This document shows, in pieces, positions 21,572 to 42,141 of a stretch of DNA of 64,000 bases. Both the position numbers and the translations under genes were made by a program. Origin of the DNA: Ectothiorhodospira lacustris (GTDB taxonomy: Bacteria > Pseudomonadota > Gammaproteobacteria > Ectothiorhodospirales > Ectothiorhodospiraceae); NCBI RefSeq assembly GCF_022227845.1, contig NZ_JAJNQN010000015.1, forward strand, positions 1 through 64,000, in the 5' to 3' direction. Within the stretch, counting starts at the first letter, position 1. The number at the start of each line of letters is the position of its first letter. The notes beneath the pieces were generated by a model. That model saw only the letters and a program-made list of their open reading frames with translations. It searched no databases and was not told where the DNA came from.

Positions 21572-23704
21572 GTGTCCCTGGGCGTGACCGGATACGCCAT
21601 CGCCGCCACCGGCTTTTTCGCTCTGCTGGCCGTGCTGCTGATCGGCTGGCAGCGCCGCCTGCAGGGCGCCTTGCTGATCCTGGCCGCCGCTGCCGGCATC
21701 CTCTGGGCGCTGACCCTGGCCGCCCAGGCCGCTTGGCCCGAACGCATCCCCCTGTTCCTTGCTTTCCCCGCCGAACTGCTCCGGGATGCGGCCTGGATCG
21801 GATTTCTCTGGGGGTTGCTCTGGCAGGCACGCCCCGGCACGCCCTCATCCCCGGCAGACGCCGCGAATACTGATCCGGGTCGTCCTCTCATCTTGCTGGG
21901 TGTGGCGGCATTGCTGCTGATCCTGGGGCTATCCATCTACCTGCTGCTCCATTCCATGCTGCCGGAGGCCTGGATGCGCGGGGATGTCCTCCTCGGCGGC
22001 AAGCTCTTGCTGACCCTCATTGCCCTGTTGCTGGTGGAACAGATCTACCGCAATACTTCCCGGGAGGGGCGGTGGGCGATCAAATATCTGTGTCTCGGTG
22101 TGGGAGGCATCTATCTGTTCGATTTTTACATGTACGCCGAGTCCCTGCTGTTTCGCAACGTGGATGCGGGTCTGTGGGAGGCGAGGGGATTCATCAACGC
22201 TTTGGTAGTGCCCCTGATCGCCGTGTCTGCCGCCCGCAATCCCCGGTGGTCCCTGGATGTCTATGTCTCTCGGGGCATGGTCTTCCACACAGCCACCCTG
22301 TTGGGGGCCGGTGTCTATCTACTGCTGATGGCGGCGGCAGGCTACTATCTGCGGGTCTTCGGCGGTGAATGGGGCAAGGTATTCCAAGTCGTATTCCTGT
22401 TTGCTGCCCTGGTGAGCCTGTTGGCGCTGGCTGCCTCCGGGCGCCTGCGCGCTCAGTTCAAGGTCTTTGTCAGCAAACACTTTTTTAACTACAAGTACGA
22501 CTATCGGGAAGAGTGGCTGCGTTTCATCTCCACCCTGGCCGACGAGACCCGGCATGAGGCCCTGCCCACCCGGGTGATCCGCGCCCTGGCGGATATCGTC
22601 GACAGCCCCGGTGGGCAGCTGTGGATGCGCAGCGGCGGTCGGCATTTCACCCAGATGGCCCAGATCAACATGGCCGAGGCCGGCCACCATGCCGAGCCGA
22701 TGGACGGCAGTCTGGCCTGCTATCTGCTGGACACGGGCTGGGTGCTGGACGTGGAGGAATGCCGGTCCGAACCCCACCGCCATCCCGATCTGCGGCTGCC
22801 GGACTGGATACGGCACAGTGAACGGATCTGGCTGCTGATTCCATTGAAACAAGGGCAGGAATTGCTGGGCTTCGTGGTGCTGCTGCCCCCCAGGGCCCAC
22901 CGCACCATGAACTGGGAGGACCGGGACCTGCTCAAGACCGCCGGGCTTCAGGCCGCCAGCCATCTGGCCCAGATGCAGGCCCTGCAGGCCCTGTCCGAGG
23001 CCCGGCAGTTCGAGGCCTTCAACCGGCTGTCCGCCTATGTGGTGCATGACCTGAAGAACCTGATCGCCCAGCTGTCCCTGGTGGTCAGCAATGCCCGACG
23101 CCATGGCGACAATCCGGCCTTTCTCAAGGATGCCATCGGCACGGTGGAAAACGCCGTGGAGCGCATGAACAAGCTCATGCTGCAGTTGCGTACCGGAGAT
23201 CCGGGGCGTGACATGGCGCCGGTGGATGTGGCACTTCTGGCCGCCCGCGCCGTGGCGCAGGCTCAGGGGCGTGCACCGATGCCGGAACTGGCTCACAATG
23301 GAGCGCCGATCCCGGTATTGGCTGACCCGGAGAGATTGCTGTCCGTGATGAATCATCTGATCCAGAATGCCCAGGAAGCCACGCCGCCCGAGGGCGAGGT
23401 GAGGCTCAATCTCCGGCGTGACAGCCGCCAGGCTTACCTGGAGATCCGCGACAGCGGCACCGGCATGACGGCCGAGTTCATCCGCGAACGCCTGTTCCGG
23501 CCCTTTGATACCACCAAGGGACTCACCGGCATGGGCATCGGCGCCTATGAAAGCCGTGAATTCGTTCGCGCCCTGGGGGGGGATCTGGAGGTGTGGAGCG
23601 AACCGGGCGTGGGGTCGCGATTCCGGATCAGTATTCCTTTGGCCCAGGAACAAGAAGAAGCCCCTCTCCCGCTCGCAGAAAAGCAACCAGACCACGGCCA
23701 GTGA
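21572..23704 (+). CDS. prsK: PEP-CTERM system histidine kinase PrsK
   Basis: Sensor kinase of the exosortase-associated two-component system. 710 residues: eight or so N-terminal membrane segments (about 5-290), a GAF-like region (about 330-480), the dimerisation/phosphoacceptor helix with VVHDLKNLIAQLSLVV (about 491), and an ATPase domain with N-box HLIQNAQEA, DSGTGM and GMGIGAYESREFV. The GTG at 21572 has GGAGG six bases upstream. prsR starts 12 bases after its stop. The membrane N-terminus presumably reads an envelope or exopolysaccharide signal; its identity is unknown. Confidence 0.92.
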   Translation: MSLGVTGYAIAATGFFALLAVLLIGWQRRLQGALLILAAAAGILWALTLAAQAAWPERIPLFLAFPAELLRDAAWIGFLWGLLWQARPGTPSSPADAANTDPGRPLILLGVAALLLILGLSIYLLLHSMLPEAWMRGDVLLGGKLLLTLIALLLVEQIYRNTSREGRWAIKYLCLGVGGIYLFDFYMYAESLLFRNVDAGLWEARGFINALVVPLIAVSAARNPRWSLDVYVSRGMVFHTATLLGAGVYLLLMAAAGYYLRVFGGEWGKVFQVVFLFAALVSLLALAASGRLRAQFKVFVSKHFFNYKYDYREEWLRFISTLADETRHEALPTRVIRALADIVDSPGGQLWMRSGGRHFTQMAQINMAEAGHHAEPMDGSLACYLLDTGWVLDVEECRSEPHRHPDLRLPDWIRHSERIWLLIPLKQGQELLGFVVLLPPRAHRTMNWEDRDLLKTAGLQAASHLAQMQALQALSEARQFEAFNRLSAYVVHDLKNLIAQLSLVVSNARRHGDNPAFLKDAIGTVENAVERMNKLMLQLRTGDPGRDMAPVDVALLAARAVAQAQGRAPMPELAHNGAPIPVLADPERLLSVMNHLIQNAQEATPPEGEVRLNLRRDSRQAYLEIRDSGTGMTAEFIRERLFRPFDTTKGLTGMGIGAYESREFVRALGGDLEVWSEPGVGSRFRISIPLAQEQEEAPLPLAEKQPDHGQ

Positions 23705-23716
23705 GGCACCCAGACG

Positions 23717-25090
23717 TTGACCGGAAGCACTCAGCAAAATCCCGTACTTCTCCTGGTGGAGGACGACCCCGGCCTGCTCAGTCAGCTGCGCTGGTGTTTT
23801 GACGACTTCGAGGTCCTGACCGCTCAGAACCGGGAGGAGGCCATTGCCCAGTTGCGTCGCGGCGAACCCTCCGTGGTCACCCTGGACCTGGGTCTGCCGC
23901 CGGATCCGGGCGGTGCCACCGAAGGTCTTGCCACCTTGGAGCAGATCCTCTCCCTGGCCCCGGAGACCAAGGTGATCGTGGTCACCGGCAACAACGACCG
24001 CGACAACGCCGTCAAGGCCGTGGCCCTGGGGGCCTACGATTTCTACCAGAAGCCGGTGGACGCGGACATCCTCAATCTCATCGTCAGGCGTGCTCACCGC
24101 CTGTTCGAACTGGAAGCGGAAAACCGCCGCCTGTCGGCCCGCCAGGCCACCGAACCCCTGCCGGGCCTCATTGCCGCCAGCCCGGAGATGCTCAAGGTCT
24201 GCCGCACCGTGGAAAAGGTGGCGCCCACCGATGCTACTACCCTGCTGCTGGGCGACAGCGGCACCGGCAAGGAAGTGATTGCCCAGGCCCTCCATGGGCT
24301 GAGTCGCCGCAATAAAGGCCCCTTCGTGGCCATCAACTGCGCCGCCATCCCGGAAAACCTGCTGGAAAGCGAACTGTTCGGCTATGAAAAAGGCGCCTTC
24401 ACCGGTGCCGTCAAGCAGACCCGGGGCAAGATCGAGTACGCCGACGGCGGCACCCTGTTCCTGGACGAAGTGGGCGACCTGCCCATGCCTCTGCAGGCCA
24501 AGCTGCTGCGGTTTTTGCAGGAGCGGGTCATCGAGCGCATCGGCGGCCGGGGAGAGATCCCCGTGGACGTACGGGTGGTCTGTGCCACCCACCAGGACCT
24601 TTCCACCCTCATTGCCGAGGACCGGTTCCGCGAGGACCTGTTCTACCGTATCAGTGAAATCACCATCCATATCCCGGCCCTGAAGGATCGTATCGGTGAC
24701 GCCCACCTGCTGGCCCGTGTGCTGTTGGAACGATTTGCCGGCAAGCAGGGGCGTACCATGCGCGGTTTCTCACAGGATGCCCAGAGCGCCATCGAACGCC
24801 ATGACTGGCCGGGCAACGTGCGGGAACTGGAAAATCGCATCAAGCGGGCGGTGATCATGGCCGAAGGCAACCAGGTGACGGCGGAGGATCTGGAACTGTC
24901 GGCCGACGGCGAAGACCCGCTCATGCTCAACCTGCGTCGGGTACGCGACGAGGCGGAAGGCAAGGCGGTGCGGCGGACATTGCAGATGGTGGGGGGCAAT
25001 ATCTCCCGGGCGGCTGAACTGCTGGGGGTGAGCCGGCCGACGCTATATGATTTGTTGAAGAAGCATGATTTAGGCAAAGAGGATGCCTGA
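23717..25090 (+). CDS. prsR: PEP-CTERM-box response regulator PrsR (sigma-54 activator)
   Basis: NtrC-type regulator, cognate of PrsK. 457 residues: receiver domain (1-125; phosphoacceptor Asp in TLDLGLPP, conserved Lys in YQKPVDAD), AAA+ domain (about 150-380) with Walker A GDSGTGKEV, sigma-54-contacting GAFTGA and Walker B GGTLFLDEVGDLP, and a C-terminal Fis-type helix-turn-helix (GGNISRAAELLGVSRPTLYDLL). TTG start with GAGG ten bases upstream. In exosortase genomes this family activates sigma-54 promoters of PEP-CTERM genes. A matching sigma-54 site is present before the PEP-CTERM gene at 36 kb. Confidence 0.93.
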   Translation: MTGSTQQNPVLLLVEDDPGLLSQLRWCFDDFEVLTAQNREEAIAQLRRGEPSVVTLDLGLPPDPGGATEGLATLEQILSLAPETKVIVVTGNNDRDNAVKAVALGAYDFYQKPVDADILNLIVRRAHRLFELEAENRRLSARQATEPLPGLIAASPEMLKVCRTVEKVAPTDATTLLLGDSGTGKEVIAQALHGLSRRNKGPFVAINCAAIPENLLESELFGYEKGAFTGAVKQTRGKIEYADGGTLFLDEVGDLPMPLQAKLLRFLQERVIERIGGRGEIPVDVRVVCATHQDLSTLIAEDRFREDLFYRISEITIHIPALKDRIGDAHLLARVLLERFAGKQGRTMRGFSQDAQSAIERHDWPGNVRELENRIKRAVIMAEGNQVTAEDLELSADGEDPLMLNLRRVRDEAEGKAVRRTLQMVGGNISRAAELLGVSRPTLYDLLKKHDLGKEDA

Positions 25091-25183: not shown

Positions 25184-26452
25184 CTACAAAAGTGACCTGA
25201 TCTGTCTTTCGAAGCGCAGGCCGGTGTCATGTTCCGCTACGATCCTGGCCCACGTTTGGGCGTTTTCCGCATAGTCGGGCACCTCAAGCAGTTGACTCGC
25301 CAGTCTGGCGATTCCCTCGGGAGAGACCTGTCCGGCGCGCATCCGTGTCCCCGTGCCGGATTTTTCAACACACATCATGTTTAGGTACTGATCCATGTTG
25401 TCGGCAATCCCGAGGATCGGCACGCCGGCGGCTAGCGCCTGCTGGGTGGAAAGGCTACCGCCGTTACAGATCATCAGCGATGATCGGGCCGCGGCCTCAA
25501 TGCCCGGCAGGAAATCGGCAGTCAGGGCGTTGTCGGGGAGGTCGTTCAGGGTGCGGCCGGAGGTGGCGGCAATGACGGTTACGGGCAGGGCGGCCAGACC
25601 CTGCAGGATGCGGGGCAGGATCCGCTGATCCCCGGAACTGCCCAGGGCGACGTAGACGATGGGGCGGTCCTCCGGCAGCGTGTCCCACCAGTCGGGTCTG
25701 GGACTGTCCGGCGACCAGAGTATCGGACCAAGCCACTGATGGTTGGCCGGTAGGGAAGTGGTCGGCACAAATGCCGGGATGTCCGCATAGAGTGTCAGGT
25801 CAGCGTCCGTGTAAGCCTTCTGCAGGCTGCCGCCCAGGCTGGGTAGCCCGTATTCCCTGCGGATGGTATTGAGCCCCTGGGCATGCAGGGCAAAGATCGT
25901 GGGCTGTAGCCTGGAGAAAAACCACTCGGACAGCCCGACCCCGAACACCCGGGTGATCGGATGTTCGGGTAGCGGAAATTTCAGGCGTGAGTAGGGGGAC
26001 CAGTAGGCGTTGGTGATGGTGACGTAAGGCACCTTGCAAAGGCGCGCGCTGATGCCCAGGGAGATCCGGAAGTCTCCCACGACAAGGTCCGGTCGAGTGG
26101 ATTCCAGTAGTTCAAGATCCGAGCGTACGTAGTCTCGCAGGGTAGGCTTGTCGTAAACCGCTTTGCCCTTGGCAAGGTTTTCCAGAAAATCCCTCGAAGG
26201 AATCGTCCGCAGGGGGCGCAGATCCCCGGGCAGGGCATCGAAAAGTTTCAGGTAGCGGTCATCACAGGCAAATATGATCTGGTAGCGGGCAGGATCCAGG
26301 CCACGGGCCATCACCATGGGGCGCACCACATGGGCCAGAGTGACGGATTCACCGACGAACAGGATGCGTTTCCTGTCCGCCTGGTGGTGTGCCGGCATTT
26401 TACTTTCCATCCCTGGACTGTGTGTTTTATCGGGATGGAAGATCGCGGTCAT
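25184..26452 (-). CDS. UGT/MGT-type glycosyltransferase (GT1-like)
   Basis: 422 residues with the two-domain GT-B architecture: N-terminal RILFVGESVTLAHVVRPMVMARGL (acceptor side) and C-terminal nucleotide-sugar motif IVYVALGSSGDQRIL, DFLPGIEAAARSSLMICNGGSLSTQQALAAGVPILGI. This resembles macrolide/rhamnosyl/steryl glycosyltransferases that decorate lipids and small molecules rather than polysaccharide polymerases. The ATG at 26452 overlaps the stop of the ThiF-nitroreductase gene (ATGA), so it is the third gene of the operon starting at 29300. Acceptor and sugar unknown; an N-acyl amino acid derivative is my inference. Confidence 0.85.
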   Translation of the reverse strand: MTAIFHPDKTHSPGMESKMPAHHQADRKRILFVGESVTLAHVVRPMVMARGLDPARYQIIFACDDRYLKLFDALPGDLRPLRTIPSRDFLENLAKGKAVYDKPTLRDYVRSDLELLESTRPDLVVGDFRISLGISARLCKVPYVTITNAYWSPYSRLKFPLPEHPITRVFGVGLSEWFFSRLQPTIFALHAQGLNTIRREYGLPSLGGSLQKAYTDADLTLYADIPAFVPTTSLPANHQWLGPILWSPDSPRPDWWDTLPEDRPIVYVALGSSGDQRILPRILQGLAALPVTVIAATSGRTLNDLPDNALTADFLPGIEAAARSSLMICNGGSLSTQQALAAGVPILGIADNMDQYLNMMCVEKSGTGTRMRAGQVSPEGIARLASQLLEVPDYAENAQTWARIVAEHDTGLRFERQIRSLL

Positions 26453-28446
26453 GAAGTAATTTTGTCGTGTCCGGAAGTCTTGAGCAATTTTGACAGGGGC
26501 AGGCGCAGGGACCGTGCCGCCGGATTGGGACCGTAGCCGACCCGGCCCATGAAGACTCCCTGGTGTACCGCGGTCTCGCCCGCCAGGGCCTGCAGATCCC
26601 GGGTCAGCCTGACGGCCCGCTCGATGGATTTGGGCACGCGGCTGAATTCTACCTGTTCATGCACATAGGATGCGAAGATCAGCGGCGTCATCTCCGGCTG
26701 GAATTGCAGGCCCAGTCGGGTTGCGGTCAGCCAGAAACGCTGCATGGCCCGGCCACCGGCAATGTAGTCGTCCATGGTGGTCAGCGGCTGTCTGGATACG
26801 ATGATGAAATGCGCCCCGCAATTCAGGGCCGGGAGCAGGTCCATCTGCAGTCTTGGCAGCAGGGTGCCTCCCAGGTAGCGGTTGAGGAAATGAACCCGTT
26901 GCCAACTGGCCAGTGCCCAGCGCATCAGCTTCAACCCCAGGGGGTCCATGCCCAGGGCCTGATCGGGGATGCGCTCGGTGCTGTACTGCGCATTCCAGTC
27001 GATGATGCTGCTGTGGACCGGATAGGCCTCGGGGGTGGTCAGGCGGATCAGGGCGTTATCCCACAGCAGCCTGGCCATGCGGCGACGTTCTTTGGGCTCT
27101 TGCAGCCAGACTACGTCATGCTCCGGGCCCGCCGCCGCTTCCAGCGCGGCACGATGACGGGATGTAAGGGGGCGGCGCTGCATGGATCGGCGCTGGGTAC
27201 TACGGGCCGCAATGAAGGGTGCCAGGGGATGGCTTCGTGCCGGGCTTTCGATCAGTTGCACGTCGAATGTGGGCCGGTTTTCAGGCGCATCCAGCCGTCG
27301 CTGGATGTCGCAACGAAATCCATGGGTAGCGGCGGCGATGTCCAGGGTTTCCAGCAATCCGCCCAGCGCGATCTGGCTGGCACGGCCCCGCAGGTCGTAG
27401 ATCACATGGTCACGGGTGTCGTGGCCGTGAATGGTGAAGCGGGTGTCGTCGTGAATCTCGAAACGCCAGGGCTGGGTGTTGTCGCCGCTGGGGGCCCAGC
27501 GGGCCTGGGAGAGGATGGTAGCCAGCGGCTTGGGCAGTTCGGGTGTGGCTGCGTCCGTGGATGCCTGTGTCTGGGTTGACAGTAGACGCGCCACCTGTCG
27601 GTAGCCGAGTTTGCATTTCAGGGTCTGCAGGGGGCCTCGGTTGCCCCAGTGCAGGCGGCCCCGGCGATACCGCGGGCGGTAGGCATCGAATACATGATAG
27701 TAGGGAGCCGGATGAATCGGCCCCCTGTTCAGCAGGATCTTCACCGCCTCGGTTCCGGTGACGCCGGCGCAGAGCTGACAGGCCATGATGGTGGAGGGAC
27801 CGCGTTTTTCAGCCAGATTCAGGCGTTGCGGGTCGACCAGATAATCACGATGGAAGCCTGACGGCGTGAGGCCCACCAGGAAGTTCACATATTGCTGTTC
27901 CACCGACAGCCCCGCCATGCGGAAATAATCCTCAAAACTCATGCCATCCGGGGTGAATATCAAATAGGCGGTACCCATGCCGATGGGGCCCGCGGTGATG
28001 GCGGGGATGCCCAGTTCGCGGCATCGGGCAAAGACTTGCGCACGTATCTGGGGAGCAAAAAAATCCAGCCCGTCCACGAACAGATCCACGCCCTCCAGAA
28101 AGGCATCGAGATTGTCCCCCTGTACACCCTCATTGAATACCTTCAGGTCCAGGGCCGGGTTGATGTCCTTGGCCATGTGCGCCAGCACTTCCGCCTTGGG
28201 GTGATCCAGGGTGCTTGTCATGGCCCCTGCCTGACGGTTGAAGTTGGCCTGCTCAAAGACATCCAGGTCGGCAATATGGAAGGCGCCGATGCCCAGTCTG
28301 GTCAGGGTGAGCAGGTGCGTACCGCCCACACCGCCCATGCCGGCGATGGCGATGCGCTTGCTTTTCAGCAGGATCTGTTCCGTTTCGGTGAGCCAGCCCA
28401 AGTTGCGTGAAAAGGCCGTCTGGTAATCGAAGTCCGATACGCTCAT
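26449..28446 (-). CDS. ThiF/E1-like and nitroreductase-like fusion protein (Rv1355c type)
   Basis: 665 residues. The N-terminal ThiF/MoeB/E1 adenylating fold has the nucleotide loop AGMGGVGGTH (35-44), acidic DLD (60-62) and ATP-contacting NFNRQ (68-72). Only one CXXC (CQLC, 223-226) is seen rather than the two zinc pairs of MoeB. From about 310 a nitroreductase-like FMN domain begins with ARWAPSGDNTQPW (315-327) and runs to the end. The architecture resembles mycobacterial Rv1355c. It suggests carboxylate adenylation coupled to a flavin-dependent redox step. It lies between an N-acyl amino acid synthase (20 bases upstream) and a glycosyltransferase (4-base overlap). The reaction is unknown. 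Confidence 0.85.
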   Translation of the reverse strand: MSVSDFDYQTAFSRNLGWLTETEQILLKSKRIAIAGMGGVGGTHLLTLTRLGIGAFHIADLDVFEQANFNRQAGAMTSTLDHPKAEVLAHMAKDINPALDLKVFNEGVQGDNLDAFLEGVDLFVDGLDFFAPQIRAQVFARCRELGIPAITAGPIGMGTAYLIFTPDGMSFEDYFRMAGLSVEQQYVNFLVGLTPSGFHRDYLVDPQRLNLAEKRGPSTIMACQLCAGVTGTEAVKILLNRGPIHPAPYYHVFDAYRPRYRRGRLHWGNRGPLQTLKCKLGYRQVARLLSTQTQASTDAATPELPKPLATILSQARWAPSGDNTQPWRFEIHDDTRFTIHGHDTRDHVIYDLRGRASQIALGGLLETLDIAAATHGFRCDIQRRLDAPENRPTFDVQLIESPARSHPLAPFIAARSTQRRSMQRRPLTSRHRAALEAAAGPEHDVVWLQEPKERRRMARLLWDNALIRLTTPEAYPVHSSIIDWNAQYSTERIPDQALGMDPLGLKLMRWALASWQRVHFLNRYLGGTLLPRLQMDLLPALNCGAHFIIVSRQPLTTMDDYIAGGRAMQRFWLTATRLGLQFQPEMTPLIFASYVHEQVEFSRVPKSIERAVRLTRDLQALAGETAVHQGVFMGRVGYGPNPAARSLRLPLSKLLKTSGHDKITS

Positions 28447-28466
28447 TCTGCTTCCCCAGGTGGTAC

Positions 28467-29300
28467 TTAAGGCTGGTTTTTCATGTCAAGGCCCATGGGG
28501 TGGTCTCCTGCACGGATCATGGTGCCCAGTTCATCCTGGGCCAGATTGTCGCGCAAGGTTGCCTCCACCCGGTCGTACAGCTGTCGCATGTCCGAGTTGA
28601 AGCCCTGCACGATGCCTTCGGCCCGAATGTAGTAGGCCGTGCGGGTGCCGTGATAGTCAGTGGGTTCACCGATCTGCTCCAGAGGGATGCCCATGCGCAT
28701 CAGGAGTTTCGCAAGCCAGTGCTCCACCATGATGAACATGTTGGGGCGGCCCACCAGCAAGGCAATGGCGGGGGAGGCGCAGATCATGGCCATGCTGACC
28801 AGGGGGTAGGTACGCATCTCCTCTTCGGAGGGCAGATCGAGCTTGTCGGGCAGGGCACCGATGCGGGTTTCGGCTTCCCTGGGGCGTCTGCGGAACTCGG
28901 GGTGTGCCGCCAAGCGGGAAATTTCACACAGCGTGTCCCTGGGCGTGCGGCGTGGGTGTCGGGGATTGCCGGGGGCCAGGCTGGCTTGGCAGTACTTTTC
29001 CAGCGGCATCATGCCATCGGGATCTTTCAGCGTGGGCAGGACGACCCGCACACAACCGGCGACGATCTCCTCGTCTGCCATCCGCTTTTCCTTGTTGTCG
29101 CCCTGGTAGATCGCCATGCAGTGGAGCGACTGGATATCGAAGCTGTCGCGCTCCAGGCCATCGGGGCAGTCATCGGGGTTTTCAAACCCGAATTCCTTCA
29201 CGTAGACGTCATATCTTGCCCGTTGTACGGCTCGGAGTTGTTCCGGGGTGCGGGCGAAATCGAGGCGGAAATACTTGAAGAAGTGGTCAATGGCTAGCAT
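28467..29300 (-). CDS. PEP-CTERM/exosortase-associated N-acyl amino acid synthase
   Basis: 277-residue GNAT-related acyltransferase of the autoinducer-synthase-like fold. Signatures: RYDVYVKEFGFEN (about 29-41), LERDSFDIQSLHCMAIYQG, and the core EISRLAAHPEFRRRPRE. Relatives from exosortase-containing bacteria make long-chain N-acyl amino acids from acyl-ACP and an amino acid. First gene of a three-gene operon with the ThiF-nitroreductase fusion and a glycosyltransferase. A second, diverged copy is encoded divergently at 29653. The substrate amino acid cannot be read from sequence. Confidence 0.88.
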   Translation of the reverse strand: MLAIDHFFKYFRLDFARTPEQLRAVQRARYDVYVKEFGFENPDDCPDGLERDSFDIQSLHCMAIYQGDNKEKRMADEEIVAGCVRVVLPTLKDPDGMMPLEKYCQASLAPGNPRHPRRTPRDTLCEISRLAAHPEFRRRPREAETRIGALPDKLDLPSEEEMRTYPLVSMAMICASPAIALLVGRPNMFIMVEHWLAKLLMRMGIPLEQIGEPTDYHGTRTAYYIRAEGIVQGFNSDMRQLYDRVEATLRDNLAQDELGTMIRAGDHPMGLDMKNQP

Positions 29301-29652
29301 GGGGCGGTTTCATAGGTAAGGCGTGAATGGGCAGGTTCGGTGCGGTGATCGACCCCTTCTGAAATCCTGCTACGTATCGAACGAGTATATACCCGCCCGG
29401 AAAGTTACGCCGTCTCCAGTATCCAGGTGGGCGTTTTTCCGGTCGATGCCCGTGCGATGGTTTGCGGTGTATCTGGGAGTGAGAGCAGCTCACGACCCTC
29501 TCCGACGGGGGAACCCCGGCGGAGGTCTAATAGATCATCCGGGAATTAGCCTCTTCCCTGGTAGCTTTTCCGATCTGTGATCTACGTTTGGCTTGCAAGG
29601 GGGTCATCTGACTACACTCAATGCGCCCTTAAATTACGCAAAGTTGACCAAA
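29301..29652. other. Divergent control region between the two N-acyl amino acid synthase genes
   Basis: 352 bases without a convincing gene. It contains a weak sigma-54-like match on the plus strand (GGGCAGG-N4-GTGCG, 29329-29344) but far from the start at 29653, and a GGGGG stretch near 29600 that does not position well for that ATG. No CRP or Fur box seen. Confidence 0.35.
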
Positions 29653-30522
29653 ATGATCGAGAATGACTACGAAGTTGTCGTTGCCGACACGAGGGAGACG
29701 CGTCGTATTCACCACCGGATCCGGTATCAGGTGTATTGCCTGGAAACCGGGTTTGAAGACCCCGCGGCGCATCCGGATGGAGAGGAGAGGGACCTCTGGG
29801 ATGAGCATTCGGTTCATTTCCTGGTTCGACATCTGCCTTCGGGGCAATGGATAGGTACCATGCGGCTTGTGCCCCGTTTGGCGGGTGGGTTACCTTTCCA
29901 GAGGCTTATGGGTGATCAAGGATGCGGTGATCTTGGCCGTATTGACGGACGGGCATGGGAAATCTCCCGTGTATGTGTGCCATCCCGATTCCGTCGCCAG
30001 CAACAGCCCGGGGAGTCGGCGACCCATAAATATAGCCGGCAGAGCGCAAACCATGCACACGAGGATGGCATTTCCTTGGGCAGATCAGGTCATGGCGGAA
30101 AAAGTCGTCCGCCTTACTTCTGGTCAGCTGGCCTGGATGGTGGAGAGTGCCTAGACTCAAGGGTATGGCGCGGAAGCATGGACGTTCGTGAATATCCTTT
30201 AAAAACAGTGATATGCTCGATAAATGATGAGGTTGGCATGGAAAAGGTGGATGGCGCTGCAGTCATCTGGGCAATGTTTAAGGCCGCCATCAGCTATTCG
30301 ACTAGGAAAGACGCGGCTTCGCTGTATTTTCTCGTAAGGCCTGCACTTGCCCGTATCGTCCAGCGTGGCGGTTTTTCAATCCATCGGGTCGGAGGGCCTT
30401 GCCAGTATCGTGGGGTGCGTTTCGCATACCGGGCAAACTTGCAGGAGCCAGCCAATATGCTATGTTCCGGAGATAAGGCCAGTGTCGGCGGGGCAATGCC
30501 GGTGATGCAGGCTTCCTCGTGA
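29653..30522 (+). CDS. Second N-acyl amino acid synthase-like acyltransferase
   Basis: 289 residues from ATG 29653, same family as the divergent gene at 28467-29300: RIRYQVYCLETGFEDP, EERDLWDEHSVHFLVRH, WIGTMRLVPRLAGGLPFQRL and the core WEISRVCVPSRFRR, then a C-terminal part ending in ARIVQRGGFSIHRVGGPCQYRG. It is only distantly similar to its neighbour, so likely different in substrate. The ribosome-binding site is weak and the frame is open to 29593 (TTG). It precedes prsT by 218 bases. Confidence 0.8.
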   Translation: MIENDYEVVVADTRETRRIHHRIRYQVYCLETGFEDPAAHPDGEERDLWDEHSVHFLVRHLPSGQWIGTMRLVPRLAGGLPFQRLMGDQGCGDLGRIDGRAWEISRVCVPSRFRRQQQPGESATHKYSRQSANHAHEDGISLGRSGHGGKSRPPYFWSAGLDGGECLDSRVWRGSMDVREYPLKTVICSINDEVGMEKVDGAAVIWAMFKAAISYSTRKDAASLYFLVRPALARIVQRGGFSIHRVGGPCQYRGVRFAYRANLQEPANMLCSGDKASVGGAMPVMQASS

Positions 30523-30740
30523 CTCGTGTACGCTTAAATGTGCGGCGCACCCTGTTTCCCTTTAGTTTGATCTGGCGGATTGAGTCTTTGGGGCGATCAA
30601 GTTGAAAATGCGGCTGTTCTGAGCCGCTCGGTATGTTAAAAATTGTGTAAGAATCATTTCTTTCAGCGATGTTATTCAATGGCCCATTTGAGTGGTCCGG
30701 TTGCTTAGGTTTTTGTTCAACTGAGGTGAGGCTCCATTTG

Positions 30741-33551
30741 GTGACTAAAAATCCTGCAAAGAGTGTTTCAAAGGGTGTTTTTTCTTCCACGTATGCACTA
30801 ATTCTCACGGTCGCAGTTTTGCTGTCCGCCGTGGGGTGTGGCCAGGGAATTGATTCTGCACAAAACCATGTCAATCGTGGGATTGAGTTCGAAAAAACCT
30901 TTGACTGGAGATCGGCCTCGATCGAGTATCGAAACGCATTGCAGAAGGATCCAGGCCATGCGGAAGGACGCTACCGCTTGGCGACGACCATGATGAAAAT
31001 GGGGGACTATGCCTCGGCTGAGGCAGAGTTCAGGCGCGCTCGGGATCTTGGATATGATCCGGATCAGATAAGGCTGCTACTGCTTGAAGTGCTTCTGGAG
31101 CAAGAGCGATTCGGTTTAATCATGGATGAAATCAGGAGCATCGAAGAAACGCCTGATCACCAGAAGCCCATGCTTGAAGCTTATCGTGGGTTGGCGCTTC
31201 TGGGTATTGGTAATATTGATGCGGGTGAACTTGCGCTTCGCCAGGCGCTGGAGATGGATGCCAGCCTTTCAAAGGCCCACCTCGGATTGAGTCTCGTTGA
31301 GTTGCGAGTGAATCGTGACGCTAACTCAGCACGAGAACGGATTAACAAGGCTATTGAAGCAGACCCCGGCACATCGCATGGTTGGCGAATGCTCGGCGAA
31401 CTTGAACAAGTGTTGGGTCGCCATGAAGAAGCTGAACATGCTTTCAGCAAGGCCATTGAGATTCAAGGTAATGTGATTCTTAATCTGGCTAGGCGCGCAC
31501 TTTCCCGGGTTCAACTGGGCAGGCTTGCAGATGCTCGTAGCGATCTGGACATTGTTGCATCAAGTGGACTGGCAGGTCATTATTTTGTGAGCTACGTTGA
31601 TGGCTTGGTTTATTTTAACGAAGGTAGATATCAAGACGCTGTCAGATCTTTTGAGGCTAGCTACAATGCTTCACCATCCCATGTGCCTACCCGCATTTAC
31701 CTGGCGACAACACGCATGCGTCTGGGGCAGATGGAGCAGGCGCGTCTGCATGCCCGATGGCTGTATGCGAATGTCCCGGATTTGCCTGTTGCAGGACACC
31801 TGCTGGGCGTGGTGCGTTACACGAGTGGTGAATACGAAGCGGCGCGAGATTTTCTGGAAGTACTACTTGCTCAAGCGCCTGATGATGTGGAAATTTTGAG
31901 CCTTTTGGGCCAGATAGCGCTTAAGGGCGAAGATCCTGAAAAAGCCGCGCAGTACTTTTCCCGTGCACTGGCGATCCGACCCGGATCCCATGAACTTCAG
32001 CGCATGCTGATGATTTCCAGGTTTGGGTCGACTGGTTTTCTTGATGACGAACTACCGACCCAGACTACAACAGGTGAAGAGCGGACATATTCTCACCAGT
32101 TCACGAGGGCGCTTCACTCATTTAACTCAAATGATTTCGAGGGGGCACTGCTGGCCGCGCAACAGCTTCACGAGAGATATCCCGATAGGGTTGACCCGGT
32201 CAATCTCATAGCAGCAGTTCATTTTGCACTTGGTGACTGGGATGCCGGAAAACTGCATTTGAGAAAGGTGCTTGAGTACAGACCGAATGACTTCAATACG
32301 TTGATGAATCTGGCTAGAGTTGAACTCTCTTCCGGTAATCTTGAGCAGGCTAGGGTTTTGCTCTCGGATCTGGGGGTACGTCATCCGGGTGATGAAAATC
32401 TGACCCTTTTGAGATACCGATTAGAGGAAGAGGCGGGCGGCACCAATGCTATTTTGGTGCTGGAGGATGCGCTGAAAAGTAATCCTCAGGCTGGGATGGT
32501 GAGATCACGACTTGCAAATCACCATCTGGAAGCTGGAAATCTTAGGGAGGCACTGGCGCTCACCGATGATGTCGATCGAAGCGCGCTGGTAAATTACCCG
32601 GTGCTGCTCGAAATACAAGGGAAAGCAGAAATGCAGCTGGGAAATATTGATGAGGCAATCCAGAGCTTCGGTGAATGGGTTGCAATTGCGCCCAGCTCGC
32701 CAGAGGCGAGATTATTTTATGCGGATAGCCTGGCAAGATCGGGTCGCCTAGATGAGTCTCAGGCGATCATAGCAGAAGCACTTGAATTGGCCCCGCTTCA
32801 TCTGGGAATTCGTATTGCACATATCAAGATGCTTGCGGCCTCAGGAGAGGCAGCGCGTGCTGAAGCTGAACTTACCGCACTTCGTACGGATTTCGGTGAT
32901 CACCCTGAGATAATGGGTGTCGAGGGTTGGTATGCCTTAGTTGTGAGGGATTTAAGCCGGGCTGAAACAGCCCTCCGGTCGGCCTTGAAGCAAAGCCCTA
33001 ATGCTGAATTGGTAATGCTCTTGAGTAATGCGCTCTGGCTGAAAAATGATTATACGGATGCCATCTTTGTGATGCAGGAATGGGTGGACTCAAACCCCGC
33101 TGATATTGGCTTACTTATGCAGTTGGCAGGTGCATATGTGGCACTAGATAATGAGACTCAGGCGATCTCTGTGTATCAGCGTGTCTTGGTGCTGCAACCT
33201 AACGCGGTCCCGGTCTTGAACAACTTGGCGTGGCTGAACAAGGCTAGGGATCTGGGGCAGGCCAAGCATTATGCCGAAAGAGCAATCTCTCTCGCCCCTG
33301 ATGATCCCTTCGTTTTAAGTACTGTGGGCATGATTAGACTTGAGGAGGGCGATGATGAAGCTTCTTATCGATACTTGCGTGAGGCTGTTGAACGTGCGCC
33401 CGATAATCTTGAAATTCGCCTGAATTTGAGCAAGGTACTTGTTGCAAGAAAATCATTTGACCAAGCGCGTGATTCCTTAGGCTCGATCATCGAGGAAGGG
33501 CAGGGAGGGGCGGTTGTTGAAGAGGCTAAGGCGTTGCTTGAGGCGTTGTAG
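30741..33551 (+). CDS. prsT: PEP-CTERM system TPR-repeat lipoprotein PrsT
   Basis: About 936 residues. A lipoprotein signal with lipobox ending at Cys33 (LLSAVGC) is followed by some 20 tetratricopeptide repeats, e.g. AEGRYRLATTMMKMGDYASAEAEF, through to the C-terminus. The family is a marker of exosortase/PEP-CTERM loci and is thought to scaffold exopolysaccharide export or assembly at the envelope. The GTG at 30741 has GAGG nine bases upstream and gives a compact signal peptide; the frame is open to 30669. The DNA is noticeably less GC-rich than prsK/prsR. Convergent with the glycosyltransferase gene at 33627. Confidence 0.92.
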   Translation: MTKNPAKSVSKGVFSSTYALILTVAVLLSAVGCGQGIDSAQNHVNRGIEFEKTFDWRSASIEYRNALQKDPGHAEGRYRLATTMMKMGDYASAEAEFRRARDLGYDPDQIRLLLLEVLLEQERFGLIMDEIRSIEETPDHQKPMLEAYRGLALLGIGNIDAGELALRQALEMDASLSKAHLGLSLVELRVNRDANSARERINKAIEADPGTSHGWRMLGELEQVLGRHEEAEHAFSKAIEIQGNVILNLARRALSRVQLGRLADARSDLDIVASSGLAGHYFVSYVDGLVYFNEGRYQDAVRSFEASYNASPSHVPTRIYLATTRMRLGQMEQARLHARWLYANVPDLPVAGHLLGVVRYTSGEYEAARDFLEVLLAQAPDDVEILSLLGQIALKGEDPEKAAQYFSRALAIRPGSHELQRMLMISRFGSTGFLDDELPTQTTTGEERTYSHQFTRALHSFNSNDFEGALLAAQQLHERYPDRVDPVNLIAAVHFALGDWDAGKLHLRKVLEYRPNDFNTLMNLARVELSSGNLEQARVLLSDLGVRHPGDENLTLLRYRLEEEAGGTNAILVLEDALKSNPQAGMVRSRLANHHLEAGNLREALALTDDVDRSALVNYPVLLEIQGKAEMQLGNIDEAIQSFGEWVAIAPSSPEARLFYADSLARSGRLDESQAIIAEALELAPLHLGIRIAHIKMLAASGEAARAEAELTALRTDFGDHPEIMGVEGWYALVVRDLSRAETALRSALKQSPNAELVMLLSNALWLKNDYTDAIFVMQEWVDSNPADIGLLMQLAGAYVALDNETQAISVYQRVLVLQPNAVPVLNNLAWLNKARDLGQAKHYAERAISLAPDDPFVLSTVGMIRLEEGDDEASYRYLREAVERAPDNLEIRLNLSKVLVARKSFDQARDSLGSIIEEGQGGAVVEEAKALLEAL

Positions 33552-33626: not shown

Positions 33627-34841
33627 CTAAAAATCCAGTTTTTCTATGGTATCAGCTGCTAGTGAAGGGGCGTCCCATTCTTGAATATGCTTTGAAAATT
33701 TCAGCGCGGAATTGCGTTGTTCGTTTGATTCCAAGGTATCTGAAATGGCCTGCAAGAGAATCTCTGGGCCGGATTTCTTCACTTGCTTGAGAGTAAGGTT
33801 TTGACCTAAGCCTAATTGATGGACTCGCTTGCCTCCATAGTTTTGCTCTGCATGGGTGGATACAACAACACATGGGAGTCCATGTGAGAGCGCTTGATAA
33901 AGCGTCCCGTTTCCTCCATGGCAGCAGACGAGATTGCAGTACGGAAGGAGCTTTTCTGTGTTCACATATTTCTCCAGATAAACTCCTCCCGGTAATGCAT
34001 GTCTTTCATCCAGATCTGCGCCGCCCCCGGCAATGATGAATTGAATGCCGTCCCGGGTTAATGTTTCTAGTTTGTTGACAAGATCAATCAGTCCTTCGCT
34101 GCCAAGGCTCAAATAGACTACCGGTCGCTCAGGGTCCATCTGCTCGAGGCATGTGGGCGCGGGAAGCGTGTTTCTCCATGTGAGCGGCCCTATGAAATGG
34201 TAGTCTGCCGGTAATTTTTTTGCGGGATTGAATTGCGGAATGTCTGCCAGCAATGAAAGATGGCTGCCAGCCTCGTGTTCATATGCAAAAAGCGTGGATA
34301 AACCATAACGTTTTCGAATACGGTTCAGGCCTCCCATGACAATGCGGTCATATATGATTTTTTCGATGATGTTTTCCACTGCATCTGCCGTTTCCCAGAG
34401 AATCGAATTCTCCCTTCCGCTCCACTGCCTGTAACTAAAAAAAGGAATGCTCCTATAATTGCTCATGTGCGTGTTCAATATTGCTATGGAAGGAATGCCT
34501 GCTTTTTCAGCTGAAGTTCGTGCAGTAGGTCTGTTATCGATCAGCACCAGTTCAGGCTTGTACGCATGATATAGTGACCGTTCTGCATTCATGAAGCCTT
34601 CCAGTTCTTTTTCCTTGTAAAGCTCCCAAAGCCTCTGTGTGCGTACGGCTTGTACAATCCGCTCAGCGGAAATATAGGGGAGTTCTTTGAACTCGAATCC
34701 ATCTCTTTCGACCAGTTGCAGATATTTGCCCTGTCCGGCGAAGAGGATTTCATGTCCGCGTTTCTGAAGAATCTTTGCAACCTCCAGTAGCCTGGAAACA
34801 TGGGCAAGGGCATGGGCATTGGGCAGGGCCAGTATTTTCAT
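33627..34841 (-). CDS. UGT/MGT-type glycosyltransferase (second copy)
   Basis: 404 residues with GT-B layout: start MKILALPNAHALAHVSRLLEVA, and donor-site region RPVVYLSLGSEGLIDLV, EKLLPYCNLVCCHGGNGTLYQALSHGLPCVVVS. Same superfamily as the gene at 25184 but diverged and far more AT-rich, so a separate acquisition or older paralogue rather than a recent duplication. It is alone on its strand, divergent from the hexapeptide acyltransferase across 185 bases. Acceptor unknown; small-molecule or lipid glycosylation is likely from the family. Confidence 0.85.
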   Translation of the reverse strand: MKILALPNAHALAHVSRLLEVAKILQKRGHEILFAGQGKYLQLVERDGFEFKELPYISAERIVQAVRTQRLWELYKEKELEGFMNAERSLYHAYKPELVLIDNRPTARTSAEKAGIPSIAILNTHMSNYRSIPFFSYRQWSGRENSILWETADAVENIIEKIIYDRIVMGGLNRIRKRYGLSTLFAYEHEAGSHLSLLADIPQFNPAKKLPADYHFIGPLTWRNTLPAPTCLEQMDPERPVVYLSLGSEGLIDLVNKLETLTRDGIQFIIAGGGADLDERHALPGGVYLEKYVNTEKLLPYCNLVCCHGGNGTLYQALSHGLPCVVVSTHAEQNYGGKRVHQLGLGQNLTLKQVKKSGPEILLQAISDTLESNEQRNSALKFSKHIQEWDAPSLAADTIEKLDF

Positions 34842-35026: not shown

Positions 35027-35683
35027 ATGAGACCTATCACTATTAAACAGATTGCGGTTTTTCTCGTGCTTTTCGGGCTGGCAGTATGCCTTGGGAGTTT
35101 AACGGTGTGGATGATGCTCGGGAGTATGCCGCTGGGGGATTTTCGAGGTGTCATACTCATAATTTCTGGTGTTGTATTCATTTATCTATGGTCGTTTTTG
35201 ATCTATAGAATATTTCTTTGGCGCGTACCTCTTGGTGTTGGGAAGATCCTGCCCGGCTCTAGGGAGGAGTTCTCTGCTCAAGTTAATATTCTGTTCTATC
35301 TTGTCTTGTTTAATTCGCTTATTAGAACCCATTTCATTCCTGTGCCCGTGATGCGACTTGTATATCAGGCCCTAGGGACCCGAATGGGGAAAAATAGTTA
35401 CAGCGCGGGAGTGATTCTTGATCCCCCGCTTACCGAGATCGGTTCAGATACTATCATCGGTCATGGTGCGGTGCTCTTCAGTCATGCGATCGAAGGCGAC
35501 AGATTCGAATTAGCTTCAATTCGGCTCGGCAATAATGTGACCATCGGTGCGACCGCGGTGATTATGTCAGGTGTGAATGTCGGTGACCGTGCGATAGTGT
35601 CGGCGGGTTCCGTCGTGCTTAAGCACACTCAGATCGGGCCCGGTGAAATATGGGGTGGTGTTCCAGCTAGAAGACTCCGTTAG
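35027..35683 (+). CDS. Membrane-anchored hexapeptide-repeat acyltransferase
   Basis: 218 residues with two N-terminal membrane segments (IAVFLVLFGLAVCLGSLTVW; VILIISGVVFIYLWSFLIY) and a C-terminal left-handed beta-helix of hexapeptide repeats (IGSDTIIGHGAVLFSHA, LGNNVTIGATAVIMSGVNVGDRAIVSAGSVV), ending GGVPARRLR as in many O-acetyltransferases. It probably transfers an acetyl or acyl group to a sugar or lipid-linked product at the membrane. Neighbours are a glycosyltransferase and a PEP-CTERM protein. Start is the first ATG of the frame. Confidence 0.82.
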   Translation: MRPITIKQIAVFLVLFGLAVCLGSLTVWMMLGSMPLGDFRGVILIISGVVFIYLWSFLIYRIFLWRVPLGVGKILPGSREEFSAQVNILFYLVLFNSLIRTHFIPVPVMRLVYQALGTRMGKNSYSAGVILDPPLTEIGSDTIIGHGAVLFSHAIEGDRFELASIRLGNNVTIGATAVIMSGVNVGDRAIVSAGSVVLKHTQIGPGEIWGGVPARRLR

Positions 35684-35750: not shown

Positions 35751-36007
35751 CCGGTTCGGTAAGTTCCACCCCGTGGAATGCGTGCTTGGTTGGCTGTGTC
35801 GGAAGAATTTACGAATTCAGTTGCCCAATCAAGGCATGGCGGTGGTTTTTTTCTTTATATTTCTGATTTTTATAAATTTTTTATTTCTGGCTCGGAATGT
35901 GCTTCAGTTTTATCCCAAGAGTGTTTTGCTTGGAGAACCGGCTTAACCTCAATTGCTCAGATTGTTGCTGAGTGGTCTGACTCGAATCACTTGTTAGGAG
36001 ATTGACA
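35751..36007 (+). other. Upstream region of the PEP-CTERM gene
   Basis: AT-rich leader carrying the sigma-54 site (35888-35904) and an AGGAG ribosome-binding site (35996-36000). A short open frame (35695-35946) overlaps it, has no recognisable features and was not called. Confidence 0.5.
35888..35904 (+). promoter_or_regulatory. Sigma-54 (-24/-12) promoter of the PEP-CTERM gene
   Basis: TGGCTCG-GAAT-GTGCTT matches TGGCACG-N4-TTGCW at nearly every key base. The invariant GG (35889-35890) and GC (35901-35902) have the required 12-base register. It is about 105 bases upstream of the PEP-CTERM start, and the sigma-54 activator PrsR is encoded in the same locus. Confidence 0.8.
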
Positions 36008-36994
36008 ATGACTGTTAAACGATCGGCCTTGGCCACCGCAATCGCAGGGTGCTTGGTGGTGGGTGTGTCTTCCCCTGTAGCCGCTGCTGTCTATGCCGGC
36101 TCCAAGCTGGATATTTCGGATTTTCGAATTGTAATTACCGCGCCGCCCCAGGACGTCATTATTGGAGATAACTATACGTTTTCGACCAATGCTGACGCCA
36201 CTTTGAATGGCGCTACCATTGGTGATTTCAACCAGTGTGTAGGCGGTACCTGCGGCGTTGCCAATCCTGTTATCACCTCTGTGGCAAGTGTGCCTGGTGC
36301 GCAGCGCTTGGCAGGAGACTTTACTATCTTTGGGCCTGGGCTCGGCAATAGTTACTCGACCGCAGCTTCGGAAATCACTACTTCGGAGTTAACTTCTGCG
36401 GGAGCGGATCCCAGCCGTGTGCAGCAGATTTCCGAAGTGAGTGTGGTCGGGACGGGTGCGGGTGCGGCAGATACTTCTGTTGACTCCGAAACCAAGCTGG
36501 AGTTCAACTTTACCATCGGTCAAACAGCGGATTTGTTACTGAACTTTACCGCCTACTCATTCATGCGGACTTTTATTGATACCCTGGATGCGCTGAGTTT
36601 TAATGCTCAGGTGCGTCAAGCTTTTACCCTTGGTCTTGAAGGTGACGGCCTTATGGAAGGTTTGTCGTGGACCCCCACGGGCGCTAACTTTGTGGCAGGA
36701 TGTTTCCCGGGCGATGTTCCTGCCGGAGTTTCATGCACGGCCCTCGACGGTTTCAATCTTAACTCTTCCTTTGGCTTGCCTGCCGGCGTGCCGCCGCTGG
36801 ACACCGAGAGAGAGCGGACGGGTGACTTTGCCTTATCCATACTTGGACTCGGTGCTGGGAATTATACCTTGACCATTGGGGCAACCACTTTTGCCTCCGT
36901 CCGCCAGGAAGTGCCTGAGCCGGGTGTTTTGGCATTGTTTGGCCTTGGGCTTGCCTTCCTTGGTTTTGCCGCTAATCGCAGACGGTTCTCATGA
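36008..36994 (+). CDS. PEP-CTERM sorting-signal protein
   Basis: 328-residue secreted protein. Signal peptide MTVKRSALATAIAGCLVVGV..AAA; a Ser/Thr/Asn/Gly-rich, Cys-poor middle typical of exosortase substrates; and a C-terminal PEP-CTERM tail of VPEPGVLALFGLGLAFLGF followed by NRRRFS (from about residue 302). An exosortase would recognise Pro-Glu-Pro, cut near it and leave the protein at the surface or in the matrix. ATG 36008 has AGGAG seven bases upstream. A sigma-54 promoter precedes it and a strong terminator follows, so it is a single-gene unit. Function of the mature domain is unknown. Confidence 0.92.
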   Translation: MTVKRSALATAIAGCLVVGVSSPVAAAVYAGSKLDISDFRIVITAPPQDVIIGDNYTFSTNADATLNGATIGDFNQCVGGTCGVANPVITSVASVPGAQRLAGDFTIFGPGLGNSYSTAASEITTSELTSAGADPSRVQQISEVSVVGTGAGAADTSVDSETKLEFNFTIGQTADLLLNFTAYSFMRTFIDTLDALSFNAQVRQAFTLGLEGDGLMEGLSWTPTGANFVAGCFPGDVPAGVSCTALDGFNLNSSFGLPAGVPPLDTERERTGDFALSILGLGAGNYTLTIGATTFASVRQEVPEPGVLALFGLGLAFLGFAANRRRFS

Positions 36995-41721: not shown

Positions 41722-42141
41722 GGTATCCCGCGCCCTCTGATAAAGCTTGCTGGCAATGGTCAATCATACTCCATTACATCGAATCTGCGATTTTCCGGTG
41801 TCGGCAGCTGTTTTTAGGACTGGAGAGCGGTCTGTCGGTCATTTTGACGTCTGGTGGAGAATGTTGGCGCCAAACTTTCCCTCTCATAGAGGCGGGTTTT
41901 TTATGTTATTGTTTTTTATGGGCTTTATTTTTTTTGGCTGAAGTTTCCGGATTTCCCTCACGCTGCGAGCGCCAGTAGCCGCGAGATCAGGGTATTTTGT
42001 GGTGATTTTGACGAATCCGGGCAACGGATACCAAAATATAGTGGACCCCGATATCTAGACAGCAGTTTAAGCTCTGAGTGGGGGGCTGGAAACGGCGGTC
42101 CAAGCGCTCTGGAGATTGGTGGGGGCGGTGCCGAGACTACG
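41722..42141 (+). other. Upstream region of the second PEP-CTERM gene with a leader-like remnant
   Basis: 420 bases. The reading frame of the downstream PEP-CTERM gene stays open back to a stop at 41887-41889 but contains no ATG. In another frame a hydrophobic start MLLFFMGFIFFG (41904-41941) looks like a signal peptide and hits a stop. Only near-miss sigma-54 sites were found (GG and GC 11 bases apart near 41860). Confidence 0.5.

Follow-up and report, generated by a model that had tools for sequence, protein, structure and literature searches.

Gene Organization of the Operon

In this study, we examined a 64,000-nucleotide stretch of the genome of Ectothiorhodospira lacustris (contig NZ_JAJNQN010000015.1, positions 1 to 64,000 of the forward strand; hereafter called the window), in which three minus-strand genes form a tightly packed operon. 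These encode an N-acyl amino acid synthase (28467-29300, 277 amino acids), a protein with an E1/ThiF domain fused to a nitroreductase-like flavin domain (26449-28446, 665 amino acids; hereafter called the fusion), and a family 1 glycosyltransferase, GT1 (25184-26452, 422 amino acids). The synthase and fusion genes are separated by a gap of 20 bases, and the fusion and GT1 genes share a 4-base ATGA overlap; the coordinates and spacing given in a preliminary description of this DNA were all reproduced, and its domain calls were borne out by matches to TIGR03694, ThiF plus Nitroreductase, and UDPGT/EryCIII-like models, respectively.

The first protein of the operon matched TIGR03694, the exosortase-associated acyltransferase family, with 175.2 bits (cut-off, 111.95). 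A profile of 18 rows, comprising the TIGR03694 family (the operon synthase included) and FeeM-like relatives, matched FeeM (2g0b) with 69 bits, and the Glu residue in the CEISRLA motif was aligned with the Glu at around position 96 of FeeM; this column contains Asp in two of the 18 rows. The catalytic Glu of N-acyl amino acid synthases is reported to be Glu95 in FeeM and Glu103 in Nas354 (PMC4897644), and the Glu in CEISRLA is taken from the alignment as the likely counterpart of FeeM Glu95, with the chain numbering offset by one.

Domains and Predicted Structure of the Fusion

The fusion contains the ThiF domain (PF00899, 129 bits) and the Nitroreductase domain (PF00881, 32 bits; cut-off, 23.5), and its nearest named relative was found in Ectothiorhodospira shaposhnikovii beta1 (96%). 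The E1 part (residues 1-290; 27577-28446, minus strand), a putative cyclase domain as judged from its family match and conserved residues, scored 421.4 bits with NF006077 (PRK08223), which is over the cut-off of 266; with the Acg-type model NF047509, the score of the fusion was 128 bits, under the cut-off of 199. When the structure was predicted from a 52-row alignment (mean predicted local distance difference test score (pLDDT), 89.4), residues 304-660 of the model matched Acg (2ymv) with a Z score of 28.9 and a root-mean-square deviation of 3.0 over 297 aligned residues, which points to an Acg-type flavin oxidase domain of the nitroreductase superfamily in residues 301-665 (26452-27546, minus strand). 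Within residues 5-271, the model matched AclA (9egb; Z 27.4), ThiF (Z 26.6), and ATP-bound MoeB (Z 24.6); a literature search on AclA, the best-scoring of these, yielded no paper.

In all of the 52 fusions aligned, the E1 part retains GxGGxG, D62, N70-R71-Q72, K84, D125, and D128, and the flavin part retains W317, S320-N323, Q325, W327, R468, and Q583. Alignment of the E1 part with TcdA and ThiF showed the ATP-site residues to be intact. The predicted structure, which the preliminary description had proposed as a check, is hence that of an E1 fold followed by an Acg-type flavin fold with conserved ATP-site and flavin-domain residues. Judging from their plausible positions, the invariant D125/D128, R468, and Q583 may correspond to D217, R540, and Q651 of TrzS. 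Regarding the zinc site of the MoeB type, a single CxxC-like pair (C223/C226) was seen in the fusion. In one scan of viral contigs, no close relatives were confirmed.

A natural variant was found in the same genus (G007; L041:8867-10882), in which the E1 part no longer has G38, G39, D60, D62, N68, N70, Q72, K84, and D128, and only one of the 13 sites examined in the flavin part is changed (D322). Judging from these residues, this variant would represent a natural separation of the cyclization and flavin steps.

Linkage of the Synthase and the E1 Family

Two samples were used for comparison: the best 80 of 334 confirmed loci from GTDB genomes (labeled L) and 321 evenly drawn genomes of the class, including that of the window (labeled G). 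The genomes of L054, L055, and L058 are those of G003, G006, and G002, and the counts are therefore not summed; also, L069 and L071 have identical rows under different family labels, which is probably due to contamination. In the genome sample, up to three candidates were scored per genome. A score of at least 200 bits was required for calling E1 present, the next E1 score being below 90, and likewise for calling a flavin domain close.

Among the 321 genomes, 32 have the E1 family, 39 have TIGR03694 over the cut-off, and 24 have both (Fisher p 2e-19), and the two genes are at most 5 kb apart in 18 of those 24. Of the 14 E1 genomes without a close flavin domain, ten lack any flavin relative at E 1e-5; a diverged relative is present within 3 kb of E1 in three (G173, G179, and G167) and far away in one (G291). 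Of the 80 loci, 54 have a gene for a FeeM- or TIGR03694-type synthase next to E1: in 40 it has the same direction as E1 and lies under 600 bp upstream, and in 14 it is divergent. In a further ten, the synthase is elsewhere in the locus. The profiles used for these calls, for which some of the training sequences came from these loci, replaced BLAST calls (36 loci). The profiles did not find such a synthase in 16 of the 80 loci, six of which have less than 6 kb of upstream sequence (L057, L059, L060, L069, L071, and L090) and eight of which are from Janthinobacterium. In the latter (L073, L075, L076, L083, L085, L102, L104, and L122), E1 and flavin genes are split with no recognized synthase nearby, and a GT1-like gene is about 2.3 kb off in seven of the eight.

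We further noticed other arrangements of these genes. In Sedimenticola (L077:8747-9967), the gene directly upstream of the E1-flavin fusion encodes a FeeM-type synthase that is joined to a cyclic-nucleotide-binding domain, and in a Rhodococcus plasmid (L134:816-3699), an IS256 transposase gene stands between a ThiF gene and the gene for a GNAT N-acyltransferase. When plasmids were searched by tblastn (seven of 72,556 records matched), proteins of this family were found in Nitratidesulfovibrio vulgaris, the plasmid pDsulf-L2-1 of which encodes a single protein of 974 amino acids with FeeM, ThiF, and Nitroreductase in that order (L135:5062-7986; NZ_CP116248.1 38642-41566), which is 34% identical to the fusion and is located in an XrtA/PEP-CTERM locus together with PEP-CTERM proteins and a TIGR03013 XrtA-system glycosyltransferase of a family other than GT1.

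General homology with ThiF and MoeB would also be consistent with an E1 domain that activates a protein or sulfur carrier and a flavin domain that participates in cofactor biosynthesis. Such a housekeeping role is nonetheless highly improbable and was rejected, given that the genome has other ThiF-family genes on contigs C12 and C16, that this E1 family is frequently paired with N-acyl amino acid synthases and the Acg-type oxidase, and that all three are united in the triple fusion.

Glycosyltransferase GT1

Both the EryCIII-like (PF06722) and UDPGT (PF00201) C-terminal domains were detected in GT1 over the cut-off, and H41 and D127, which we take to be the functional His-Asp dyad of GT-B family 1, are invariant in 25 aligned rows. 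The predicted structure (pLDDT, 88.9) was best matched by CalG1 (3oth; template modeling score, 0.72) and is similar to those of enzymes that attach sugars to small aglycones, including CalG1 and OleD. Together with the linkage across genomes described below, these scores and the model suggest that GT1 is a glycosyltransferase of the small-molecule type.

Taking 40% identity and 300 bits as the lower thresholds, we found relatives of GT1 in ten of the 321 genomes: nine of the 18 with E1 and a close flavin domain, none of the 14 that have E1 and lack a close flavin domain, and one of the 289 without E1. At E 1e-10 alone, 14 genomes match, and four of them with 27-31% identity (G053, G059, G112, and G295) were dropped; one of these, G112, carries E1 but no flavin domain. 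When the genomes were collapsed to families, GT1 was present in 6 of 14 vs 1 of approximately 161 (p 6e-7, approximate because 175 families, the highest label seen, were assumed). GT1 is no more than about 10 kb away in 32 of the 80 loci; in eight, it immediately follows the fusion in the same orientation (L054, L055, L056, L096, L098, L099, L105, and L109). The overlap of 205 bases in L098 and L109, where the open reading frame is taken from its first start, is probably a start-codon artifact. The full co-directional order of synthase, fusion, and GT1 is found in six (L054, L055, L096, L098, L099, and L109). The preliminary description had treated the three genes as a unit, which held well for the synthase and E1 (24 of 32 E1 genomes) and in part for GT1; indeed, GT1 adjoins three of the nine full-length fusions of the relatives sample, including that in the window.

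Methyltransferase Alternating with GT1

A methyltransferase was first noticed in an E1-flavin locus without GT1 (L036:12104-13036), and its homologues were found in eight of the 80 loci (L058, L072, L077, L088, L095, L113, L119, and L129), none of which has GT1 (p 0.013); the exclusion also holds when the 56 loci whose 3' flanks are 8 kb or longer are taken alone (p 0.011). The methyltransferase gene starts 13-26 bp past the E1-flavin unit, whether a fusion or a split partner, in four of the eight loci and 1.2-1.6 kb past it in three, and lies about 8 kb upstream in L077. While this exclusion was noticed post hoc in the 80 loci, it was then checked in the 321 genomes and in the genus. Among the genomes, the methyltransferase is present in five (34-67% identity); four of these have E1, which is in each case no more than 1.7 kb from the methyltransferase, and none has GT1. 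In the ten whole genomes of Ectothiorhodospira, GT1 was found in G000, G003, and G006, the methyltransferase only in G002, and neither in the other six; in another genus (g26), G067 and G321 have GT1, and G214 has the methyltransferase. Among the named loci of Ectothiorhodospira, L055, which has the three-gene set, belongs to E. haloalkaliphila, and L058, which has the methyltransferase, to a strain of E. shaposhnikovii. The simplest reading of these results is that GT1 and the methyltransferase are alternative means of capping the same small molecule.

Surrounding XrtA/PEP-CTERM Locus and Candidate Export Genes

The operon lies in an XrtA/PEP-CTERM locus. On its 3' side, genes for the histidine kinase PrsK (21572-23704, plus strand; 823 bits) and the response regulator PrsR (23717-25090, plus strand; 732 bits), the latter convergent with the operon, are present, and on the other side is a gene for the PEP-CTERM TPR lipoprotein PrsT (30669-33551, plus strand; 518 bits). 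Two further plus-strand genes (36002-36994 and 42142-42780) encode proteins with the tails VPEP...NRRRFS and VPEP...RRRDRFSV, respectively, which we take to be PEP-CTERM-like motifs. The exosortase of the genome is encoded on a separate contig, C2 (240.6 bits). Between the operon and PrsT, a second, divergent TIGR03694 synthase is encoded (29593-30522, plus strand; 133 bits, cut-off 112), and such pairs of synthases recur in relatives. Control of the operon by PrsR and sigma-54 was considered but is unsupported; the motif TGGCACN5TTGCW with up to two mismatches had 37 matches vs 36.7 expected and zero matches in the intergenic region 29301-29592.

Domain searches also identified a second family 1 glycosyltransferase, GT2 (33627-34841, minus strand), a hexapeptide-repeat acyl/acetyltransferase (35027-35683, plus strand), homologues of which are close to GT1 elsewhere, and an AcrB-type RND transporter (37120-40647, minus strand) adjoined by an HlyD-type periplasmic adaptor (40660-41763, minus strand). 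In L056, homologues of GT1, GT2, and the hexapeptide transferase are in one cluster. An RND pump homologue (at least 40% identity) is nearby in four of 20 regions of relatives and seven of the 80 loci; the four regions are all those from the same genus, that of the window aside, in which the fusion is full-length. MMPL and LolA-like genes are present in eight of the 20 regions and six of the 80 loci. From this neighborhood conservation, the RND transporter is a candidate exporter of the product. The eight regions with an MMPL transporter and a LolA-like protein, a gene set resembling that for lipid export, are those of relatives with E1 only (L042:8410-12599; L044, L047, and L049-L053), and DUF1302 proteins are present in both of the E1-only loci checked.

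Proposed Pathway and Alternatives

We consider, with a probability of roughly 0.6, that the operon directs the synthesis of an oxazolone lipid and its capping with a sugar; namely, the three genes very probably make a lipid of a fatty acid and an amino acid with an oxazolone ring, and GT1 probably adds a sugar to it. First, the TIGR03694 synthase, in a role like that of OxzA or TrzA, would N-acylate an amino acid with a fatty acyl group; the amino acid is most likely aromatic, and tyrosine is favored because a later step needs a hydroxyl. The E1 domain would then adenylate the carboxylate, on which the amide oxygen closes to form an oxazolone (azlactone), and the Acg-type flavin domain would desaturate the side chain with O2. 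The result would be an arylidene oxazolone, or an N-acyl dehydro-amino acid if the ring is hydrolyzed. Finally, GT1 would glycosylate the product, probably at the phenol, and relatives would methylate it instead; the phenol of tyrosine is favored as the capping site because stieleriacines carry a methyl group on the tyrosine ring (PMC12479983) and the described N-acyl oxazolones come from aromatic amino acids (PMC12856293). Further decoration is possible, GT2 being a candidate for the addition of a second sugar and the hexapeptide transferase for that of an O-acyl group, and export may be through the AcrB-type pump. Our analysis shows the genes, their domains and conserved residues, the predicted folds, and the linkage across genomes, and the first three steps are established in print for relatives; the substrate, the product, the sugar and its site, the fourth step, export, and the role in the PEP-CTERM/exopolysaccharide programme are inferred. 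The product is best read as a lipid of that programme, either an acyl-oxazolone or an N-acyl dehydro-aromatic amino acid, that carries a sugar. The order of N-acylation, ATP-dependent activation of the carboxylate, a flavin step, and addition of a sugar, as proposed in the preliminary description, is broadly right and mostly known; in the OxzB/TrzS architecture, the activation amounts to cyclization and the flavin step to desaturation.

Several observations weigh against this reading. The fusion is not equivalent to TrzS, because it scored 198.4 bits with NF005901, the Rv1355c/TrzS model, under the cut-off of 476; from the sequence, the fusion is of the same kind as TrzS but of a different subfamily, and the counterparts of TrzS D217, R540, and Q651 were matched by likely position only. 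Of the four genomes with both E1 and the methyltransferase, two (G179 and G353) lack a close flavin domain. In 48 of the 80 loci, many of which are short, no GT1 was seen, and it is absent from 9 of the 18 genomes with E1 and a close flavin domain, while G330 (85% complete) has GT1 without E1 being found. Where a genome has both, GT1 is on a contig other than that of E1 in six of nine cases, and in G321 (nine contigs) they are probably truly apart; the two are within 10 kb only in G000, G286 (2.4 kb), and G067 (7 kb). Furthermore, some GT1 copies are near PrsR, at a distance of about 14 kb in G321 and about 6 kb in both G127 and G354. The organism itself has no known product.

Because GT1 is often on a contig other than that of E1 and some copies are near PrsR, it could serve exopolysaccharide synthesis, and the operon would then be a plain one for an oxazolone or N-acyl dehydro-amino acid with GT1 as an enzyme of the neighboring exopolysaccharide or PEP-CTERM locus. 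Also in line with this, the hexapeptide transferase homologue is within 130 bp of GT1 in seven of the ten named loci with both. We nevertheless regard this explanation as rather unlikely: even among the 87 PrsR-positive genomes, GT1 tracks E1 with a close flavin domain (7 of 15 vs 1 of 72, p 8e-6), its absence from every genome that has E1 and lacks a close flavin domain would not be expected, nor would its mutual exclusion with the methyltransferase, and the direct adjacency of fusion and GT1 in the eight loci recurs in five parts of the fusion tree (a quick one with many weak forks), including Phycisphaera, a planctomycete, and Marinobacterium.

The sugar-capped oxazolone should also be weighed against an open N-acyl dehydro-tyrosine of the kyonggic, thalassotalic, or stieleriacine type, carried further to a glycoside, for which E1 gives a transient ring or an otherwise activated acid. 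N-acyl dehydrotyrosines have been linked to the same set of synthase, ThiF, and nitroreductase genes, and no oxazolone is reported for the producers of stieleriacines, kyonggic acids, and thalassotalic acids (PMC12479983); this counts against an oxazolone as the end product, which may be an open dehydro-amino acid for that reason. Massilia loci L131 and L132 also carry the FeeM-type synthase, E1, and flavin genes. Isolable oxazolones are, on the other hand, reported from OxzB, TrzS, and TyzB (PMC10404671, PMC12856293), and we see the open acid as possible but on balance doubtful. Azlactones are electrophiles, and in a locus for exopolysaccharide and protein sorting, the ring might instead serve as a reactive acyl donor for a sugar, polysaccharide, or PEP-CTERM protein. 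This is improbable, given that no candidate for an acceptor or transferase was found and that oxazolones elsewhere are extracted as free lipids (PMC12856293).

Returning to the capped oxazolone lipid, we tentatively extend it, at less than even odds, to a wider proposal: PEP-CTERM bacteria might make widespread, undescribed acyl-oxazolone lipids capped by glycosylation or methylation and exported by RND or MMPL pumps, which would constitute a small-molecule arm of the XrtA/exopolysaccharide programme. If so, these could be a surface lipid or a biofilm signal, for instance, and two open roles would be linked: that of oxazolone lipids, named as unresolved (PMC12856293), and that of N-acyl amino acid synthases, called unclear in a report that also cites their link to PEP-CTERM loci (PMC4897644). 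Swapping of the cap between a sugar and, probably, a methyl group inside two genera leads to a specific product prediction for cultured purple sulfur bacteria. Moreover, many annotations as "ThiF family adenylyltransferase" in PEP-CTERM loci could be renamed.

Comparison with Known Systems

A ThiF-nitroreductase fusion beside an N-acyltransferase is a published enzyme type with the architecture of oxazolone synthetase. OxzB, TrzS, and the split TyzB/TyzC convert N-acyl aromatic amino acids to oxazolones in an ATP-dependent reaction, followed by O2-dependent desaturation (PMC10404671, PMC12856293). The preliminary description had regarded the coupling with both the E1-nitroreductase fusion and glycosyl transfer as uncharacterized, which does not hold for the fusion, given the known OxzB, TrzS, and TyzB plus TyzC; for glycosyl transfer, no description was found. 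Among the papers listed in searches of the open-access literature, none linked oxazolone-type synthesis to a glycosyltransferase or PEP-CTERM; the strings "glycos" and "PEP-CTERM" are absent from PMC12856293, "glycosyl" and "exosortase" are absent from PMC10404671, and "glycosyltransferase" has zero occurrences in PMC12479983. A table of a Rubrivivax exopolysaccharide/PEP-CTERM cluster already includes THIF-type genes, named by fold alone (PMC3684757).

Among the individual systems, the tryptazolone pair TrzA/TrzS (Rv1356c/Rv1355c) resembles the operon in having an acyltransferase followed by a fused ThiF-FDO protein, with Acg (2ymv) as the closest flavin structure, but the fusion here belongs to the other subfamily noted above, and no glycosyltransferase is mentioned for TrzA/TrzS (PMC12856293). 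The tyrazolone system TyzA/TyzB/TyzC has the same three activities, but on separate polypeptides and in mycobacteria (PMC10404671). In Mycobacterium tuberculosis, mmpl9 flanks tyz (PMC10404671), which is paralleled by the MMPL genes in the regions and named loci mentioned above. The clusters for stieleriacines, kyonggic acids, and thalassotalic acids have the synthase, ThiF, and nitroreductase in common with the operon, and Stieleria adds a methyltransferase; those systems methylate, whereas glycosylation is proposed here (PMC12479983).

As for the remaining two, the core of two genes, an N-acyltransferase and a ThiF-nitroreductase fusion, is shared with OxzA/OxzB, the oxazolone synthetase of Pseudoalteromonas rubra reportedly described by de Rond et al. 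in 2021. The operon differs from OxzA/OxzB in its TIGR03694-type synthase, its PEP-CTERM locus, and the glycosyltransferase within the operon. N-acyl amino acid synthases are also said to have been linked to PEP-CTERM/exosortase loci by Craig et al. in 2011 (cited in PMC4897644), and the operon is similar in that its synthase is encoded in an exosortase-type locus. While the core chemistry is thus known, what is new in this operon is the proposed capping with a sugar (or, in relatives, a methyl group) and the PEP-CTERM setting.

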